DNA of 64,000 bases, taken from contig NZ_SRHX01000005.1 in NCBI RefSeq assembly GCF_004565475.1, forward strand, positions 1 to 64,000, given 5' to 3'. The DNA comes from Lonepinella koalarum (lineage in GTDB: Bacteria; Pseudomonadota; Gammaproteobacteria; Enterobacterales; Pasteurellaceae). The translations under genes and the position numbers were made by a program. Under the pieces are notes generated by a model. That model ran no database searches. It worked only from the letters and a program-made list of their open reading frames with translations, and was not told where the DNA came from. This document shows, one piece after another, positions 1-23,415 of this stretch. Every line of letters starts with the position of its first letter. Position 1 is the first letter of the stretch.

Positions 1-3000
1 ACTGTTACCACCGATAATATCAAAGTGGGCTTGTGTTTGATTAACGGTAACATTGGTTCCTGTATTATCTGCACCAACGGTAAAGCTTTGTAAAGCTGAA
101 TCGGCATTTTTCAACGAATCCTTGGTCGCTTGAGAAAGATCTAAAGCATAATTGGTATTTTGACCAGAAGTCGTAGAAGTTACCGTAATAGCGTCAGTTG
201 TGCTATTTACGCTGGTAGTTTTTTCAGAGTCATTAATTGCTTTGGCGACTTGTTCAGCAGTGGCAAAATAATCACCAACTGTTGGAACATCAACCTTGCC
301 AGTCGTCGAATTAACAGTTAAATCTGATTTATTCACAGAATATTTGACAGTTGATGTCGTACCAGTCAAATCAACTGTTGCAGTGGTACCTGTTCCATTA
401 GCAAAACTCACATTGTCGTTATTTTTTACTTGGTCTTTTTGAGTACCATTTTCTTGAATATTCCAATAGGTATTATCAGATGCGGTAGAAACAGCATCTT
501 TTAATTGCGCCACGTTAACAGCATCTGTATCGGCTGAACCCGTTGCCACGTTGGTAATATTGTTGCCACCCATATTGATGGTACCGCCATTGGTAACGGT
601 CAGATTTTGAGTAGTAACATTAGTCGTGGTGACGTTTGTAAAAGTTACATCTTTACTGGTCGAAATATCAATTCCATTGTTAGCAGCGTTAGCCGCAATA
701 ACGATATTATCACCCGCAATAAAGTTCGCTATATTGCTCGTTGGGGTAACATCTTTGACTTTTTCGCCGTTTGCTTGAAGTACCCAACCCGCTTGAACTG
801 TAGCATTCAAATTATTGATGTTATTGGTATTGTTAGTGACATTTTGGTTAGTCGCAAATAACTGTGAACCATTAACCGCATCTTTAGAATCTACACTTAC
901 GGTACCATTGGTAACGTTGGTAATTTTCTGATTACCCGCATCAATACCGGATTTAGTAATACTTGGACCGCCATTAATTGTTAACCCTGTAGTATTTAAC
1001 AAGGTATCACCAATGGTGACACTACCGCCACTGCTTAAATCTAAGGTGTTATTTAAATTAATTTGGATTTTGCCATCCGTTACAGTGGTATTTAGATTAC
1101 TGTTGCCACCCACCACTTCAATTTTTTCACCTAAGCCTTTGGTAATATTTTGACCATCTTGGGCTTGCAAGCCAAAACCTTTGGCTATATCAGCAGCATT
1201 TTTACTAATGTTGGCGGTATTGTTAGCAATATTAACCGTATTATTGGCAATATTTTGCGTATTATTACTAATGTTATTCGCATTATTGGCAATATTTTGC
1301 GTATTATTTGATACGGTATCTTTAAAGGATTGTGCAATATCTACTGTGATATTTTGACCATTTACCGTGGTATTAACAAAATTCTCTGTACCCGTAATAT
1401 CAAAGTGGGCTTGCGATTGATTAACCGTAACATTGGTTCCTGCATTATCTGCACCAACGGTAAAGCTTTGTAAAGAAGTATTTGCTTTTGTTAATGATTC
1501 GGTTACTTTATCATCTAATTTAAAAGTAACTTTACCATCTTCTGCGCTGGTAACGATCTGATCGGCAGTACCGGCAAAAGTGACATTTTCGGTTAATTTA
1601 TTGGAGCCGTTAGAATTATTATCACCTAAATAATTTAAGGTTACATTATCCACATAATCTTTATTTGCCGCATCCGTGCCGGCAGTTGGGCTTGCTACGT
1701 TGGTAATATTGTTGCCACCCATATTGATGGTGCCACCTGTGTTGACGGTCAGATTTTGAGTAGTGAAGTTAGTCGTTGTAACATTATCAAATGTTGGAGA
1801 CATTGATGTCGCAATCGAAATCTTTTTACCATCTTGGGTAATATTAATATTTTGACCCGCATCAATAGTAACAGTCTCTCCCATCTGAACATTTGTTTCG
1901 CTATTACCAGAAACATTACCCCCAGCTGAGGCGGAAGTCGTGATGTTCCAACCTTTGTTTACGGTGGCATTGGCGGTATTAGCTGTGTTGTTGGCAGTAT
2001 TCGCTGTAGTATTAGCGGTATTCGCCGTAGTATTGGCAGTATTCGCTGTAGTATTAGCGGTATTCGCCGTAGTATTGGCAGTATTCGCTGTAGTATTAGC
2101 GGTATTCGCCGTAGTATTGGCAGTATTCGCTGTAGTATTAGCGGTATTTGCCGTAGTGTTAGCTGTGTTCGCTGTAGTATTGGCGGTATTTGCCGTGGTA
2201 TTGGCGGTATTCGCCGTGGTATTAGCGGTATTTGCCGTAGTATTGGCAGTATTCGCTATAATAGTTGTTGCGTTTAACTGACTTAAATTAACAGCATCAT
2301 TATCGGTTGTACCATTGGCGACATTGGTAATTTTCTGATTGCCAGCATCAATACCATTATCCGTAATTGTCACGGTACCTGTTGTGAATGTTTCAGCAGT
2401 GACAGATGTAAAGGTTGGATTAGCCACAGTGGCGATTTTGATATTGCCATTGTCATTAGAAATATCAATATTCGTACCATTAACAAAATTTAAGGTTGAA
2501 TTTGTTTTATTAATTGTTTTGGCATCCACCCCATTGGTTTGTGCGGTCCAAGATTGTAAAGCTGAACTGGCGTTCGCTAATGAATCCTTGGTCGCTTGAG
2601 AAAGATCTAAAGCATAATTGGTATTTTGACCAGAAGTCGTAGAAGTTACCGTAATAGCGTCAGTTGTGCTATTTACGCTGGTAGTTTTTTCAGAGTCATT
2701 AATTGCTTTGGCGACTTGTTCTGCCGTTGCAAAATAATCACCAGTTTGACCCGCGCTTACTGTACCACTATTAACATTTAAAGTTGTTTGATTAACAGAA
2801 TATTTAACGGTTGACGTTGTGCCATCAACAGAAACGGTCGCCGTAGTACCCGTGCCATTGGCAAAACTCACATTGTCGTTATTGTTTACTTGGTCTTTTT
2901 GTGTACCATTTTCTTGAATATTCCAATAAGTGTTCGCGGAGGTTTCAGACACGGCAGCTTTTAATTGTGCTACATTGACGGCGTCTGTATCGTCTGAGCC

Positions 3001-5481
3001 GGCGGCTACATTAATAATTTGGCGTTTAACTGTATCTGAACCGACACTCACTGCACCTGCTGTAGGTTTTGTAGCTATAACAGCATCACTTTGAGTTTGA
3101 TTGGCTGATGTTGGAATATATGGGGATGTAGCGTTAGGGTACTGATCAAACACTCTATTTGCCACACTATTTTCACCAAGGGCAACCCCGCCCGAAGCAG
3201 TTACATTAGCATTATTTCCCAATGCCACAGCACCACTGTTAGTAATTAATGCATTATTACCAATTGCAACACTATATGGGCTACTAACGTTAGTATTATT
3301 ACCCATCGCGATACTATACTGACTATTCGAGGTTGCATTGTCACCGATAACAATTTGGCTGGTTGCCCAGTTATTAGCATTGGCACCGCTACCAAGCACA
3401 ATGGAATTCGCCGCATTCGCTGATGAGTTGGTACCAATAGCGACACTATTTAGAGCAGTAGAAGTTGCATTAGTCCCTACGACAATTTGATTGGCTTGTG
3501 AGCCAGTAGCATTAGCATCTCGACCTAGTACAATAGAATTTTGACCAGTTGATGTTGAATTAGTACCGATCACGATTTCAGACATCTGACCGTTAGCCTT
3601 GGCATTGTAACCCAGTGCGATAGAAGCTCCACTGGATGCGGTGGAATTTTCACCAATAGCAACGGATGAACCAATTACATTGGCTGAGCTGGTTATGGTG
3701 GCATTATGGCCAAATGCAATACCTCCAGCACTTGAACCGACGGAGGCATTGGTACCAATAGCAAATCCATTTTTAGCGACTGTTGAAGTGGATCCCACAG
3801 ACGCATTGTCCCCAATGGCAATAGAAGATCCTTGTGTTGCGGCAGATCTTGCTGATGTACCGATTGCTATACTATTATTATTGTTACTACCTGTTACATT
3901 CGCATTGGTACCAAAGGCAATATTATCTGTGCCAACATTGTATGCACCACCAATAGATGCATTATAACCAATCGCCGTATTATTATGATTAAAGGCAGAG
4001 GCATTTACACCTAACACTATAGAGTTATTACCTGACGCACTGATATTATTCCCCATCACAAAAGTATTATTGCCCGGCACGGTATTATTATTCCCGATAC
4101 TATAAGACTCCGTACCAGAAACCGTAGAAGGATCCCCAATTGCTCCGGAATTTTTACCTGTAACGTTATTACCCGTACCAATAGAAATGGTGTTGTTGGC
4201 TAATGCTTTTGCGCCAGAACCAATCGCTACAGCATTGGTACCGTTTGTTTGCGCGGAAGAACCAATCGCTACCGAATCCGTTTGATTTGCAGTGGCATTA
4301 TAACCCGCCGCAAAAGAGCGCTCGCTATTGGCGGTTACCTTTGAACCGATTGCCGTAGAATTAGCCCCTAAAGAACGTGCTATATAACCAATCGCAGTAG
4401 AATGGGCTTTACTCGCTTGAGCAAAGGCACCAATGGCGGTGGCTTCAATGGCAGTGGTGTTTTGGGTTGTGCTGCTTATTGTTTCACCATTATCACCCGC
4501 AGTAGCATATACCCCAATGGCAGTAGAACCATTACTTAATGCTTGTCCATGTACACCGACAACAACAGAACCTATTCCCGATGAGAGTGAGGGACGGTAG
4601 TTTGAATAGGTATTAGTAGTAGCATTATAGGGCACATAACCAATTGCTAATTTGAGTGTGTCGTAGTTATAGGGATCATTGTTTTTATTTTCACTAGAAC
4701 CCGTATCATCACCGCCAATCGCAACCGAACCAAAACCTGTTGCCGTCGCATCATTACCAATAGCCGTAGATTGTGTTCCACTAGCGTTAGTTTGTGCACC
4801 TAAGGCAACTGATTGGTTGCCATTTGATTTAGCACTGGAACCAATAGCAATAGCACCCTGTGAAGGAGAACCATTACCAGCAGACACAGCTTTCGCATTT
4901 GCCCCAATGGCAATAGCACTGTCACCGCTAGCATTAGACGAATTTCCCATAGCAACGGCATTATTTTGATTCGCTACAGACGCATTTCCTATAGCAATAG
5001 CATTTATACCCGTTGAATTTGATGAAGAGCCCATAGCAATAGCATCCGTACCGTTCACTTTAGCATTCCAGCCCATGCCAATTACACCCGTTCCGTTGGT
5101 AGTAGCTACATTGGTACCTATAATAATTGAATCCTGATTAGCTGAATTAGAATTCTTCCCTATAACAATACTGTTATTGCCATTAGCATTGACTGTCGTT
5201 CCAACGGCAATACTATCTGTTCCACTCGCCGTAGCACCTGAAGAATTGATAGCGCTTCCAGAAGTTGAACCAATCGCAACCACCGCTGATGCGGTTTGAA
5301 TGGTGGAAAGTAATGAAATTGCCACCGCACTTAATTTAAAACTTGAATGCCACACTGAAGATAAATTATGTTGCTGATTGACAACGGAAGATTTTGCTTT
5401 GCCTTGGCTGGAAGCAAGCTCAGAGACAACCACAAAAGAATGGGTCACTTTGCTCCAAATGACTTTATAGATTTTGTTCAT
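1..5481 (-). CDS. Trimeric autotransporter adhesin (YadA/Hia-like), 5' part, truncated by window edge
   Basis: The frame is open without a stop from the ATG at 5481 to base 1 (1827 codons), so the C-terminal membrane anchor lies outside the window. The N-terminus starts MNKIYKVIWSKVTHSF, the extended signal peptide region typical of large type V secreted proteins. A hydrophobic core (about residues 48-66, ending QTASA) follows. Residues about 70-800 are many degenerate 14-residue YadA-head repeats of the type AIGxxAxAxGxxS. The rest is stalk with neck motifs DAVNxxQL (for example DAVNVAQL and DAVNLSQL) and asparagine/threonine-rich coiled coil. By family this is an outer-membrane homotrimer that binds host matrix or cells. 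It is monocistronic with its own promoter, downstream of a patatin-like gene. The family call is secure; the ligand cannot be told. Confidence 0.93.
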   Translation of the reverse strand, partial: MNKIYKVIWSKVTHSFVVVSELASSQGKAKSSVVNQQHNLSSVWHSSFKLSAVAISLLSTIQTASAVVAIGSTSGSAINSSGATASGTDSIAVGTTVNANGNNSIVIGKNSNSANQDSIIIGTNVATTNGTGVIGMGWNAKVNGTDAIAMGSSSNSTGINAIAIGNASVANQNNAVAMGNSSNASGDSAIAIGANAKAVSAGNGSPSQGAIAIGSSAKSNGNQSVALGAQTNASGTQSTAIGNDATATGFGSVAIGGDDTGSSENKNNDPYNYDTLKLAIGYVPYNATTNTYSNYRPSLSSGIGSVVVGVHGQALSNGSTAIGVYATAGDNGETISSTTQNTTAIEATAIGAFAQASKAHSTAIGYIARSLGANSTAIGSKVTANSERSFAAGYNATANQTDSVAIGSSAQTNGTNAVAIGSGAKALANNTISIGTGNNVTGKNSGAIGDPSTVSGTESYSIGNNNTVPGNNTFVMGNNISASGNNSIVLGVNASAFNHNNTAIGYNASIGGAYNVGTDNIAFGTNANVTGSNNNNSIAIGTSARSAATQGSSIAIGDNASVGSTSTVAKNGFAIGTNASVGSSAGGIAFGHNATITSSANVIGSSVAIGENSTASSGASIALGYNAKANGQMSEIVIGTNSTSTGQNSIVLGRDANATGSQANQIVVGTNATSTALNSVAIGTNSSANAANSIVLGSGANANNWATSQIVIGDNATSNSQYSIAMGNNTNVSSPYSVAIGNNALITNSGAVALGNNANVTASGGVALGENSVANRVFDQYPNATSPYIPTSANQTQSDAVIATKPTAGAVSVGSDTVKRQIINVAAGSDDTDAVNVAQLKAAVSETSANTYWNIQENGTQKDQVNNNDNVSFANGTGTTATVSVDGTTSTVKYSVNQTTLNVNSGTVSAGQTGDYFATAEQVAKAINDSEKTTSVNSTTDAITVTSTTSGQNTNYALDLSQATKDSLANASSALQSWTAQTNGVDAKTINKTNSTLNFVNGTNIDISNDNGNIKIATVANPTFTSVTAETFTTGTVTITDNGIDAGNQKITNVANGTTDNDAVNLSQLNATTIIANTANTTANTANTTANTANTTANTANTTANTANTTANTANTTANTANTTANTANTTANTANTTANTANTTANTANTTANTANTTANTANNTANTANATVNKGWNITTSASAGGNVSGNSETNVQMGETVTIDAGQNINITQDGKKISIATSMSPTFDNVTTTNFTTQNLTVNTGGTINMGGNNITNVASPTAGTDAANKDYVDNVTLNYLGDNNSNGSNKLTENVTFAGTADQIVTSAEDGKVTFKLDDKVTESLTKANTSLQSFTVGADNAGTNVTVNQSQAHFDITGTENFVNTTVNGQNITVDIAQSFKDTVSNNTQNIANNANNISNNTQNIANNTVNIANNTANISKNAADIAKGFGLQAQDGQNITKGLGEKIEVVGGNSNLNTTVTDGKIQINLNNTLDLSSGGSVTIGDTLLNTTGLTINGGPSITKSGIDAGNQKITNVTNGTVSVDSKDAVNGSQLFATNQNVTNNTNNINNLNATVQAGWVLQANGEKVKDVTPTSNIANFIAGDNIVIAANAANNGIDISTSKDVTFTNVTTTNVTTQNLTVTNGGTINMGGNNITNVATGSADTDAVNVAQLKDAVSTASDNTYWNIQENGTQKDQVKNNDNVSFANGTGTTATVDLTGTTSTVKYSVNKSDLTVNSTTGKVDVPTVGDYFATAEQVAKAINDSEKTTSVNSTTDAITVTSTTSGQNTNYALDLSQATKDSLKNADSALQSFTVGADNTGTNVTVNQTQAHFDIIGGNS
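116..255 (-). repeat. Intragenic direct repeat, copy 1 (140 bp)
   Basis: This stretch is identical to 2582-2721, exactly 2466 bp (822 codons) away and in the same frame. Flanking sequence stays similar on both sides (stalk module with SVNSTTDAITVTSTT). A shorter near-copy of the bases before it is at about 1393-1470. The copies could recombine to delete or expand stalk modules. Confidence 0.9.
1970..2263 (-). repeat. 21-bp tandem repeat encoding TANTTAN heptads
   Basis: About 14 consecutive 21-bp units (12 near-perfect at the protein level) encode the heptad T-A-N-T-T-A-N within the adhesin stalk. Units alternate between two synonymous versions, which suggests 42-bp duplications. A heptad period fits a trimeric left-handed coiled coil. 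Because the unit is a multiple of three, copy-number change would alter stalk length without breaking the frame. Confidence 0.9.
2582..2721 (-). repeat. Intragenic direct repeat, copy 2 (140 bp)
   Basis: Second identical copy of the stalk module at 116-255, in frame with it. The sequences diverge right after position 2721 (TGCCGTTG here against AGCAGTGG at the other copy). Confidence 0.9.
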
Positions 5482-5696
5482 AAAATTTACACTTGATTAG
5501 TGGTTAGACTATCTTCTTACGACAAGCTAACAATAGCATGATATTCTTACCATTTTTGTTGATATGTTCTAAATATATCTTGATCTTCTAATAAATATTA
5601 CCTATTTATTAATAAAATCCATGATATTAAAATGTAATAGCTAAATGTTTCCCTAAAAGCATTTAGAAGACGAGTGATATTTAGATCTCATTTTTT
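5482..5696 (-). other. Untranslated leader of the adhesin gene
   Basis: This is 215 AT-rich bases between the octamer array and the adhesin ATG, with no ORF of note. I see no promoter here as good as the one at 5806-5834, so it is probably mostly 5' untranslated region. There is no strong Shine-Dalgarno sequence before the ATG (only AAGTG about 10 bases upstream). It holds two more GATC sites. Confidence 0.5.
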
Positions 5697-5808
5697 GATC
5701 TATTGATCTATTGATCTATTGATCTATTGATCTATTGATCTATTGATCTATTGATCTATTGATCTATTGATCTATTGATCTATTGATCTATTGATCTATT
5801 GATCTATT
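5697..5808. repeat. Octamer simple sequence repeat, 14 x GATCTATT
   Basis: Fourteen perfect tandem copies of an 8-bp unit (plus-strand GATCTATT; AATAGATC in the direction of the adhesin gene) lie 216 bp upstream of the adhesin start. The last three bases belong to the -10 element of the predicted promoter, so transcription should start inside the array. Such arrays change copy number by slipped-strand mispairing. Each unit also contains a GATC Dam site. H. influenzae hmw promoters carry a comparable 7-bp array. Confidence 0.97.
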
Positions 5809-5834
5809 ATAATATTAACTCATTCAATATGCAA
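5806..5834 (-). promoter_or_regulatory. Predicted sigma70 promoter of the adhesin gene
   Basis: Read on the minus strand, TTGCAT (5834-5829), 17 bases, then a perfect TATAAT (5811-5806). The -10 runs directly into the octamer array, placing the transcription start near 5799 inside the repeats. The two elements and spacing are near consensus; use of the promoter is inferred. Confidence 0.7.
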
Positions 5835-5872
5835 ACGATTATATTCGTTTTATCAATCGTGACTATCCACAA

Positions 5873-5896
5873 TAAAAAACTCGTGCGAGTGCGAGT
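5873..5896 (-). terminator. Possible terminator after the patatin-like gene
   Basis: On the minus strand a short stem ACTCG / CGAGT with an 8-base loop is followed by TTTTTATT. It sits 35 bp after the patatin-like stop codon and before the adhesin promoter. The stem is only 5 bp, so the call is tentative. Confidence 0.4.
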
Positions 5897-5930
5897 ATAT
5901 GGTGGCTGAGTATTTATAATAACATGTTGA

Positions 5931-7295
5931 TTATTTGGCTTCTTTTAATAACCTCTGATATTCCTTAGACTGATTTAACAAAATTTTAGCAGCTTTTTTC
6001 AAATCATTAATATCATTACTTGGCAAGTAAAAAGTGGTTGGCAAGTTCAGCATACGTTGACGAAATTCCGCTTGGCTATCAGGCAAATCACGTAAATTCA
6101 AGCTAATAAAATAGATCCCCGCTTTATTACCTTTTATTTTGCCTAATTCTTCATTACGCGCATCCACCACGGCACGGAAACGGTTTAAACTGGTTTGCGA
6201 TGTTTGATCAATCGGCACATCAATAACCGCAGTAGCTTGATCGGAAAAACTTGGCACGTCGGCAGTTTTATCAATTTCGGTGCTAATTTGATTTTGCGCA
6301 TTGACACTAATGATAATAATTCGTTTGATATTGCTACTTTTTAACCGCTCGCGAATCGCATTTTCTGGCGACACTTCTTGGGTTTCTAGCAAGCTTTTTA
6401 TCCCGAGATTATCAGTGAGCCCGCCATCTAATAAATGGATATAAGGACGTTCTTTACTATTGGAATATTGCTGGAGTTGACGAATATATTGCTGGCGAGA
6501 TTCATCTTGAAGATTACCTTGATCGGCATCTAACGTCGCTTGTAATTCTTTAGCCAGTTGATAATTACAATTCCCCCCGTTGTTATTTAAGGTAAGTGGC
6601 GAAAACACTAACGGCACCGCACTGGAGGAGGCGACAGCACGTGCAAGGGGTAATTTGGCGAGATCAAGACACATGGTATCAAATTGTTCTTGAGTAAAAT
6701 CAAGTCGGCGACCAATGGACATATCGGTGGCGCTGATCACCGCAAAAGGTCCTTTACGTTGGGTGGCTAAATCGCCAAAGGTTTTGTTACCAAATAGCGT
6801 GTTTTCAAATTGTTCTTGCAACAAATCACCTCGCCCAAATTGTGGAGAAAACAATCTCGGCATATTGGCAAAAGAAAGGGTTTGGTTGATCATTAATTTT
6901 TGGAAATTTTGTTTTAAGAACCTTTTCTCAAAAGTCGGAATGGTCTCTTTGCCATATAAAGAATAATAAATCGCCAACACGGATCCGCCCGAAACGCCAT
7001 ATACCATGTCAACATTGTCAATTAAATTGGTGGATTTGCCATCTAAATTAATCGGATGACGATTTAATTCTTCTAATACGCCATAACCAAAAGCCGCCGC
7101 CCTTGTCCCACCGCCGGAAAACATAATGGCGATGATGGTCGAGTCATTAAATTTATCTTGCATGGTCTTTTGCAAGCGATAACCCTTTGATGTATCCACT
7201 CGATCAATGGTGGCAAGGGGTTGATATTGTACTGCATTACAAGCAGTTAAAAATAAAGTCGTGCTAATCAGAGCCAATTTATGCAGTGATTTCAT
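5931..7295 (-). CDS. Patatin-like phospholipase lipoprotein
   Basis: 454 residues. The N-terminus is a lipoprotein signal ending LTAC with Cys19 as the lipidation site, so the protein should be membrane-anchored. The patatin fold is shown by an oxyanion-hole glycine loop GGGTRA (61-66), the nucleophile elbow GVSGG (Ser102) and the DGG motif (Asp290), forming a Ser-Asp dyad. It is predicted to hydrolyse acyl esters of phospholipids or other lipids. The ATG at 7295 has GGAAG upstream. It has its own terminator and lies between a toxin-antitoxin pair and the adhesin, both on the same strand. All catalytic residues are intact. Substrate unknown; a secreted virulence role is only a guess. Confidence 0.88.
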   Translation of the reverse strand: MKSLHKLALISTTLFLTACNAVQYQPLATIDRVDTSKGYRLQKTMQDKFNDSTIIAIMFSGGGTRAAAFGYGVLEELNRHPINLDGKSTNLIDNVDMVYGVSGGSVLAIYYSLYGKETIPTFEKRFLKQNFQKLMINQTLSFANMPRLFSPQFGRGDLLQEQFENTLFGNKTFGDLATQRKGPFAVISATDMSIGRRLDFTQEQFDTMCLDLAKLPLARAVASSSAVPLVFSPLTLNNNGGNCNYQLAKELQATLDADQGNLQDESRQQYIRQLQQYSNSKERPYIHLLDGGLTDNLGIKSLLETQEVSPENAIRERLKSSNIKRIIIISVNAQNQISTEIDKTADVPSFSDQATAVIDVPIDQTSQTSLNRFRAVVDARNEELGKIKGNKAGIYFISLNLRDLPDSQAEFRQRMLNLPTTFYLPSNDINDLKKAAKILLNQSKEYQRLLKEAK

Positions 7296-7328
7296 GAAAT
7301 TATCTTCCTTTATAGGGTGTAAAAAAAT

Positions 7329-23168: not shown

Positions 23169-23406
23169 GTAGGGGCGTATTGCATACGCCCTATGCTCGA
23201 TCGTTTTATTTACCACAAACCGCGGTAGATTTTTCGTTTGTTTTTGGGCGTATGCAATACGCCCCTACATTTGTTTTTTGAGCGCATGCAATACGCCCCT
23301 ACGTTTGTTTTTTGAGCGTATGCAATACGCCCCCTACGTTTGTTTTTTTGGGTGTATGCAATACGCCGCTACGTTTGTTTTTTTGGCGTATGTAATACCG
23401 CCCTAC
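23169..23406. repeat. REP-like palindrome array between leuB and leuC
   Basis: Six copies of a 22-24 bp unit whose core GGGCGTAT-GCA-ATACGCCC is an 8-bp stem with a 3-base loop, followed by CCTAC. One copy (23169-23191) is inverted relative to the other five (starting near 23246, 23280, 23314, 23350 and 23385). The inverted copy and the first direct copy form a perfect 23-bp inverted repeat. The direct copies are 34-36 bp apart, separated by GTTTGTTTTTTT-type spacers, and decay towards leuB. Further copies lie at 24532 and 40260. Confidence 0.9.
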
Positions 23407-23415
23407 GGTGATGAT

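Follow-up and report, generated by a model that had tools for sequence, protein, structure and literature searches.

An array of 14 octamers in contact with the -10 hexamer of a predicted promoter upstream of an adhesin gene in Lonepinella koalarum is one member of a recurring class of hmw-like arrays in the bacterial family to which this organism belongs. With a probability of about two in three, this array serves as a contingency tract of the hmw P2 type that sets the output of the adhesin in graded steps. Across the class, position, more than the sequence of the repeated unit, seems to be what is kept.

The Octamer Array and the Adhesin Gene

When the window, namely, the whole 64,000-nucleotide stretch of DNA that was analysed, was submitted to Tandem Repeats Finder, a tract of period 8 was detected at positions 5695-5808 (14.2 copies; 100% match; score 228). 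On the minus strand, where the unit reads AATAGATC, the tract corresponds to 14 full units or 14.25 copies and is a perfect array, also written with TTGATCTA as its unit; with the unit written as GATCTATT, the 14 full units span 5697-5808. The 14 perfect 8-bp units described in the sequence-only reading were thus borne out. The occurrence of the array by chance is excluded. A word of three units was found at a single place when the whole draft genome of L. koalarum was searched and in only one of 140 family genomes, namely, the genome studied here.

Between the array and the start codon of an ORF that begins at position 5481 on the minus strand lie 213 bp; the ORF remains open for 1,827 codons until the contig end, which is also the edge of the window (1-5481). 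Its predicted product includes the ESPR (PF13018; E=1.2e-14) and YadA head (PF05658; E=2.3e-31) motifs that are hallmarks of trimeric autotransporters of the YadA family, in agreement with the giant trimeric autotransporter-like adhesin proposed earlier. The C-terminal YadA anchor lies outside the window, the gene being cut by the contig end. Examination of the draft genome (2.5 Mb; 47 contigs, with the window starting at a contig end) revealed three YadA anchors, two at the right ends of contigs C46 and C20 and the third inside C5, as well as two ESPR genes, both of which run off left contig ends (C43 and C3). As such, it is likely that the adhesin gene was split by the assembly. Within the adhesin gene, positions 1969-2256 hold an in-frame 21-bp coding repeat present in 13.7 copies and seen in the protein as NTANTTA-like heptads, which could be a further site of length change, in this case of the protein.

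Upstream of the array on the same strand, a terminator-like hairpin followed by a T-run is found at 5879-5896, between the neighboring gene and the predicted promoter (one found, as compared to a mean of 0.1 in shuffled sequence, and recognized by match to consensus only), such that the adhesin gene may represent a separate transcription unit. The neighboring gene, also on the minus strand (5931-7295), encodes a patatin-like lipoprotein (Pfam Patatin; E=1.4e-19). Its best match outside the studied genome is in family genome G027 (L010), where the similar gene precedes a gene of another kind, and the lipoprotein gene was accordingly rejected as an adhesin-linked gene. A scan of named genomes identified two relatives of the lipoprotein, both in Neisseria (55% and 61% identity), making an exchange between Neisseria and Pasteurellaceae possible. 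Plasmid records searched with positions 5420-7300 returned zero matches.

Within the window, the word AAGTGCGGT, the uptake signal of the Haemophilus type, occurs 28 times, pointing to a host that is very probably a member of the Pasteurellaceae. Approximately five tandem 34-bp units containing the hairpin GGGCGTAT-GCA-ATACGCCC occupy a gap between listed ORFs at 23235-23407.

The Predicted Promoter and Leader

Promoters were sought with an approximate, E. coli-like weight matrix. The candidate adhesin promoter, termed P1, comprises the -10 hexamer TATAAT (5806-5811; minus strand; 10.6 bits), a 17-nt spacer (5828-5812) and the -35 hexamer TTGCAT (5829-5834). Three bases are shared by the -10 hexamer and the array, ending the former and beginning the latter. 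Hence, the contact between array and -10 hexamer previously described stands, but as a 3-base overlap, rather than as an array starting exactly at the hexamer. Likewise, the description of P1 as near-consensus holds for the -10 hexamer, which is perfect, yet not for the -35 hexamer, which is weak, agreeing with the consensus TTGACA at three of six positions (or at four of six if TTTGCA and an 18-nt spacer are read, as in a simple scan). A second, weaker candidate, with a TATAAT -10 hexamer at 5838-5843 (TAGTCA-16-TATAAT; minus strand; 8.2 bits), is found 32 nt upstream of P1, and transcription initiated there would likewise include the entire array.

Finding a promoter-like match is in itself unremarkable in the AT-rich DNA of this locus, with five being observed between 5400 and 6000, as compared to a mean of 4.6 in shuffled versions. 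At equal distance from array-free genes, a score of 10.6 bits was reached at one of 2,060 single positions (0.05%), while 18% of 206 such genes presented a site of at least 10.6 bits somewhere between -450 and -20. P1 is the top-scoring site between 150 nt upstream of the array and the adhesin start codon, and sense promoters with a -10 hexamer within the array or the leader reach at most 6.2 bits. Transcription is thus predicted to start at P1 inside the array, with no stronger predicted promoter between array and gene.

With a start placed 7 nt after the P1 -10 hexamer (approximately position 5799), the predicted leader comprises some 318 nt (5482-5799; minus strand), of which approximately 105 nt would be array and the following 213 nt array-free. 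This prediction agrees with the earlier proposal of a transcript beginning inside the array and carrying about 100 nt of repeat. A search of the leader for known RNA families returned none, with two microRNA matches alone being listed, both far below gathering scores. Among the 140 family genomes, no convincing leader homologue was found; each of the 140 offered some match at E values of up to 10, the best outside the studied genome being stretches of 26 and 49 nt with E values of about 0.001.

Comparison With Known Repeat-Controlled Adhesin Genes

The hmw1A and hmw2A genes encode two-partner-secretion adhesins, rather than trimeric autotransporters. The products of uspA2 and nadA are trimeric autotransporters, and the uspA2 array lies within the leader.

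In H. influenzae hmw1A, the first repeat contributes nucleotides to the -10 box of P2, which is the functional promoter and yields transcripts that contain the repeats in the 5' untranslated region (PMC8262952). The hmw1A P1 promoter alone gave zero reporter signal, whereas the full region gave more than did P2 alone (PMC8262952). Expression of hmw1A falls as the repeats grow, also when reporter fusions are considered, with the authors leaving undecided whether transcription, mRNA stability or translation is the affected step (PMC8262952). In isolates, hmwA mRNA is generally inverse to repeat number, with exceptions (PMC2424069; PMC10127715). The L. koalarum array resembles the (ATCTTTC)n array of hmw1A and hmw2A in overlapping a -10 hexamer, active in the case of hmw, in lying in the 5' untranslated region, here predicted, of an adhesin gene, in probably belonging to the same bacterial family and in presenting a similar copy number (9-28 in one isolate set); it differs in that the hmw unit is of 7 bp and free of GATC, and in that a second candidate start, the hmw P1, lies at the far end of the hmw array (PMC8262952; PMC2424069).

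Closer in dimensions is the (GCATCATC)12-15 array found 200-213 bp upstream of hmwA in H. influenzae biogroup aegyptius (PMC2651432; PMC3309571), which shares with the L. koalarum array an 8-bp unit, a nearly equal copy number and a practically equal distance to the gene, but differs in unit sequence and in preceding an hmw gene. Also in biogroup aegyptius, tabA and tahA, both encoding trimeric autotransporters, are preceded by repeats in what is taken to be the promoter region, although here the promoter units are TA, T and CAAA (PMC3309571). In Moraxella catarrhalis, the mRNA level of uspA2 varies with the length of an upstream array, (AGAT)n, positioned 132 bp upstream, the differences being the 4-bp unit and the other bacterial group (PMC7302503). 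Finally, nadA of Neisseria meningitidis is tuned in graded steps by an upstream (TAAA)n array, yet this array is placed ahead of the core promoter and alters the distance between NadR operators, with IHF binding in between (PMC2791445).

Given these published arrays, the L. koalarum locus belongs to an already known, hmw-like kind. The sequence-only reading had taken an 8-bp unit joined to the -10 hexamer of such an adhesin gene to be a distinctive variant and the hmw array to be placed differently. Neither point was supported: the 7-bp hmw1A array likewise overlaps the functional P2 -10 box in the 5' untranslated region (PMC8262952), octamer arrays at hmwA and promoter repeats at tabA and tahA had already been published (PMC2651432; PMC3309571), and equivalent layouts, built from other units, were met at other adhesin genes of the family, one of these being in the sister species. 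A reading of the array as distinctive to this locus was thus rejected on the basis of both the hmw papers and the family survey described below.

On the other hand, the proposal that this is a likely contingency locus was upheld as likely. By analogy with hmw P2, transcription of the adhesin gene would start at P1 inside the first repeat unit, and the array would make up the 5' portion of a lengthy untranslated leader. Slipped-strand mispairing would add or remove 8-bp units, as suggested by a perfect array of 14 copies having the look of slippage tracts. Because the -35 hexamer, the spacer and the -10 hexamer all lie upstream of the array, the core promoter would be unaffected by unit number; what would change is leader length, together with the initially transcribed region. 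Adhesin mRNA and protein would then shift in graded steps, rather than on and off, with more units possibly meaning less adhesin, a direction taken from hmw1A only. The step affected would be early elongation, mRNA stability or translation, the same choice as for hmw.

Arrays Upstream of ESPR Genes in the Family

ESPR genes are present in 139 of the 140 family genomes. The survey considered 252 such genes, comprising the best-scoring listed matches (most of those listed), rows picked by hand and five loci chosen for DNA similarity to the L. koalarum locus; this sample is not random, with many further ESPR matches lying outside the 252. L146 (start codon missing where expected), L058 (no different from L044 across the region compared) and L177 (internal stop) are not among them. 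An array was defined as perfect, with a non-homopolymer unit of no more than 12 bp, lying in the 500 bp that precede the gene, while 25 homopolymer runs were counted and excluded from the analysis.

Such arrays, 38 in number, were found between -500 and 0 at 37 of the 252 ESPR genes. The contig ends less than 500 bp upstream of 11 genes, one of which has none, and 35 of the 241 genes with a full upstream region presented an array. Considering intergenic DNA, 36 arrays were detected in the 91.4 kb between -500 and 0, as compared to seven in the 84.6 kb found farther upstream at the same loci, corresponding to a rate ratio of 4.8, and none was detected in 39.5 kb of intergenic DNA from 20 stretches of 20 kb, each placed arbitrarily. 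In a first survey, which covered 140 loci under somewhat looser limits on length, 14 arrays with units of at least 5 bp were seen between -500 and 0 and none farther upstream. In the larger set, the corresponding values for units of at least 5 bp are 25 and three, such that the contrast is weaker than in the first survey yet persists.

The units of these arrays are unrelated, range from 3 to 11 bp and have little in common, as exemplified by CTTATAG, ACAATTCTTAA, CATTGG, AGCAC, AAGGC, TAATCAC, TATATGC, CACTGGCG and GCAATCAA. Three other arrays are of 8-bp units (L163, L167 and L221), with L167 and L221 coming from one genome. In the sister species, arrays precede three of four ESPR genes, with units of 11, 6 and 3 bp, while in the studied genome, one of two ESPR genes is preceded by an array.

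Several individual loci are also of note. At L014, in another genus, (CTTATAG)x14 (1547-1644) ends 22 bp before the ESPR start codon, near the expected ribosome site. At L076 and L102, (TTG)n arrays lie between two -10-like words, where the array itself could possibly serve as the -35 element for the downstream -10 hexamer, representing another coupling of array and promoter. Genome G100 presents 15 ESPR matches, most of those listed having open frames of only approximately 53-70 codons, as would be seen if numerous adhesin genes of this genome were broken or out of frame.

Array Starts and -10 Hexamers

The relation between array start and promoter was considered for 35 of the 38 arrays, with the second array of L128 and, as they lie at contig edges, L164 and L167 being set aside. 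Coincidence was scored when the 3' end of a sigma-70 -10 hexamer of at least 6 bits fell within -8 to +6 nt of the array start. This was the case for 20 of the 35 arrays. By comparison, array-free genes gave a frequency of 14.1% when matched positions were considered. The frequency was 17.2% for positions just upstream in the array loci, also 17.2% when the 50 nt upstream were shuffled and 15.1% at leader positions, while coincidence was seen at one of 34 array ends and, on the opposite strand, at the other edge of five of the 35 arrays. When three related pairs were merged, 17 of 32 arrays still showed coincidence. Relative to the 17.2% background, the binomial probabilities are 1.2e-7 (20 of 35) and 4e-6 (17 of 32), values obtained with a 6-bit threshold and a position window that were fixed after some individual loci had already been inspected.

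At the same time, 15 of the 35 arrays have no good -10 hexamer at their start, and when each locus was restricted to its top-scoring promoter, this lay at the array start in six of the 35 (1.5 expected), upstream in 12, inside the array in three and downstream in 14. The layout is hence frequent but not universal. As such, the -10-at-start layout is much commoner than chance and is one of several layouts. An equivalent case is provided by L045, another ESPR gene, from the sister species, in which the -10 hexamer TACAAT runs into (ACAATTCTTAA)x8.

It is as if arrays of unrelated units had repeatedly settled on the -10 and start site of adhesin genes of this family, with position, rather than sequence, carrying the function. 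In the open-access literature searched, no description was found of family adhesin arrays generally occupying the -10 position, which says little on the remaining literature.

Alternative Explanations

In one alternative, the array transcript would form a 5'-terminal hairpin through GAUC:GAUC pairing, with additional units lengthening the hairpin and so protecting the mRNA or altering its translation. Indeed, the minimum-energy fold has the array paired with itself and the remaining leader in the fold predicted for it when the array is removed, except for a short stem beside the array, while the z-score is -4.74 for the whole leader, as compared to -1.96 for the array-free part. In the centroid structure, however, the array is unpaired. 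When units from across the class were strung to 100 nt, 16 of 37 proved essentially unstructured, arguing that RNA structure is not a common cause for the arrays, and permutation ranks for the 20 units with enough permutations revealed no bias either way (mean rank 0.48; p 0.84), such that a common RNA-structure rule was rejected. At the L. koalarum locus itself, the hairpin explanation is considered unlikely. In relation to a Rho-like idea, the numbers of C and G in the units were also compared; C exceeded G in 17 units, G exceeded C in eight and the two were equal in 12, making a C-over-G rule a weak lead.

Dam-dependent epigenetic switches are known from pap and agn43. What is special to the L. 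koalarum array is that each full unit contains GATC, a point absent from the sequence-only reading, such that methylation sites, 14 GATC in all, would be densely clustered at the transcription start. SeqA would bind the hemimethylated DNA following replication and delay or switch adhesin transcription, with unit number tuning the cluster, either alone or atop an hmw-like effect. The 14 GATC sites occur within 112 bp, as compared to at most four per 112 bp in the rest of the window and at most six in other fetched family sequence, and GATC recurring every 8 bp four times running was found in one of 140 family genomes, namely, that studied here. The genome encodes one D12-type, Dam-like methylase (PF02086; 251 bits) with putative GATC specificity, as well as SeqA (PF03925; 140 bits). 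GATC in the regulatory region and a gene for a Dam-type methylase of putative specificity, the features expected of a Dam-dependent switch, are thus both found here, and the GATC in each unit, together with the methylase and SeqA, makes a Dam/SeqA layer possible. Against this, only one of the 38 survey arrays, that of L. koalarum, has GATC within its unit, showing that GATC is not the shared trait of the array class, and a four-letter palindrome is expected by chance in some eight-letter units; chance is a sufficient explanation for the one case in 38. Control by Dam and SeqA was hence judged to be decidedly improbable. The same low standing is given to a double contingency switch, in which slippage would alter the number of GATC sites at the start and hence the control of the adhesin by SeqA and the timing of Dam methylation. 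If true, phase variation at the genetic level would determine how strong an epigenetic switch is. The generalisation that arrays repeatedly settled on the -10 position is better supported than is the double switch.

A spacing switch of the nadA kind would have the real promoter downstream of the array, with changes in unit number altering the distance between flanking protein sites. Such a switch has precedent in nadA itself (PMC2791445). Some family arrays are similarly arranged, such as L073, where the promoter lies downstream of the array, as do the best predicted promoters of the 14 survey arrays noted above. At the L. koalarum locus, by contrast, the best sense promoter downstream of P1 scores but 6.2 bits, as opposed to the 10.6 bits of P1, and the prediction does not place the array upstream of an active -35 hexamer. 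A nadA-type spacing array was thus rejected as a candidate for this locus, with little probability being left to a spacing effect.

It is also conceivable that a slippage-prone sequence simply grew where transcription opens the DNA, with unit number having no role in expression. Array starts at -10 hexamers would also be expected were open complexes to promote expansion. On the other hand, the density of arrays immediately upstream of ESPR genes is roughly fivefold that seen in more distant upstream intergenic DNA, and arrays are absent from the 39.5 kb of other intergenic DNA, while hmw1A, with its equivalent layout, does show an effect of the array (PMC8262952). An array without effect is hence very doubtful.

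Equally hard to credit is a two-way promoter, with an antisense transcript also starting at the array, given that a plus-strand transcript would next run into the end of the lipoprotein gene, which lies on the opposite strand, and that the plus-strand spacing is independent of unit number, even though TATTATAATA is its own reverse complement, the plus strand presents the -35-like TTGATC every 8 bp, a plus-strand candidate with a TATAAT -10 hexamer at nearly the same place reaches 9.8 bits and a simple scan reported TTGATC-16-TATTAT.

Implications for Adhesin Expression in the Family

How the hmw array lowers expression was left open by the authors in the portions of those papers considered here (PMC2651432; PMC8262952). 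With units of 3-11 bp that are unrelated to each other, and with more than half of the arrays starting at a -10 hexamer, the question of the hmw mechanism becomes testable. Because these arrays share a location, explanations bound to the sequence of any one unit are less likely. When adhesin expression is compared across related isolates, these findings suggest that the number of repeat units upstream of ESPR genes is worth reading.
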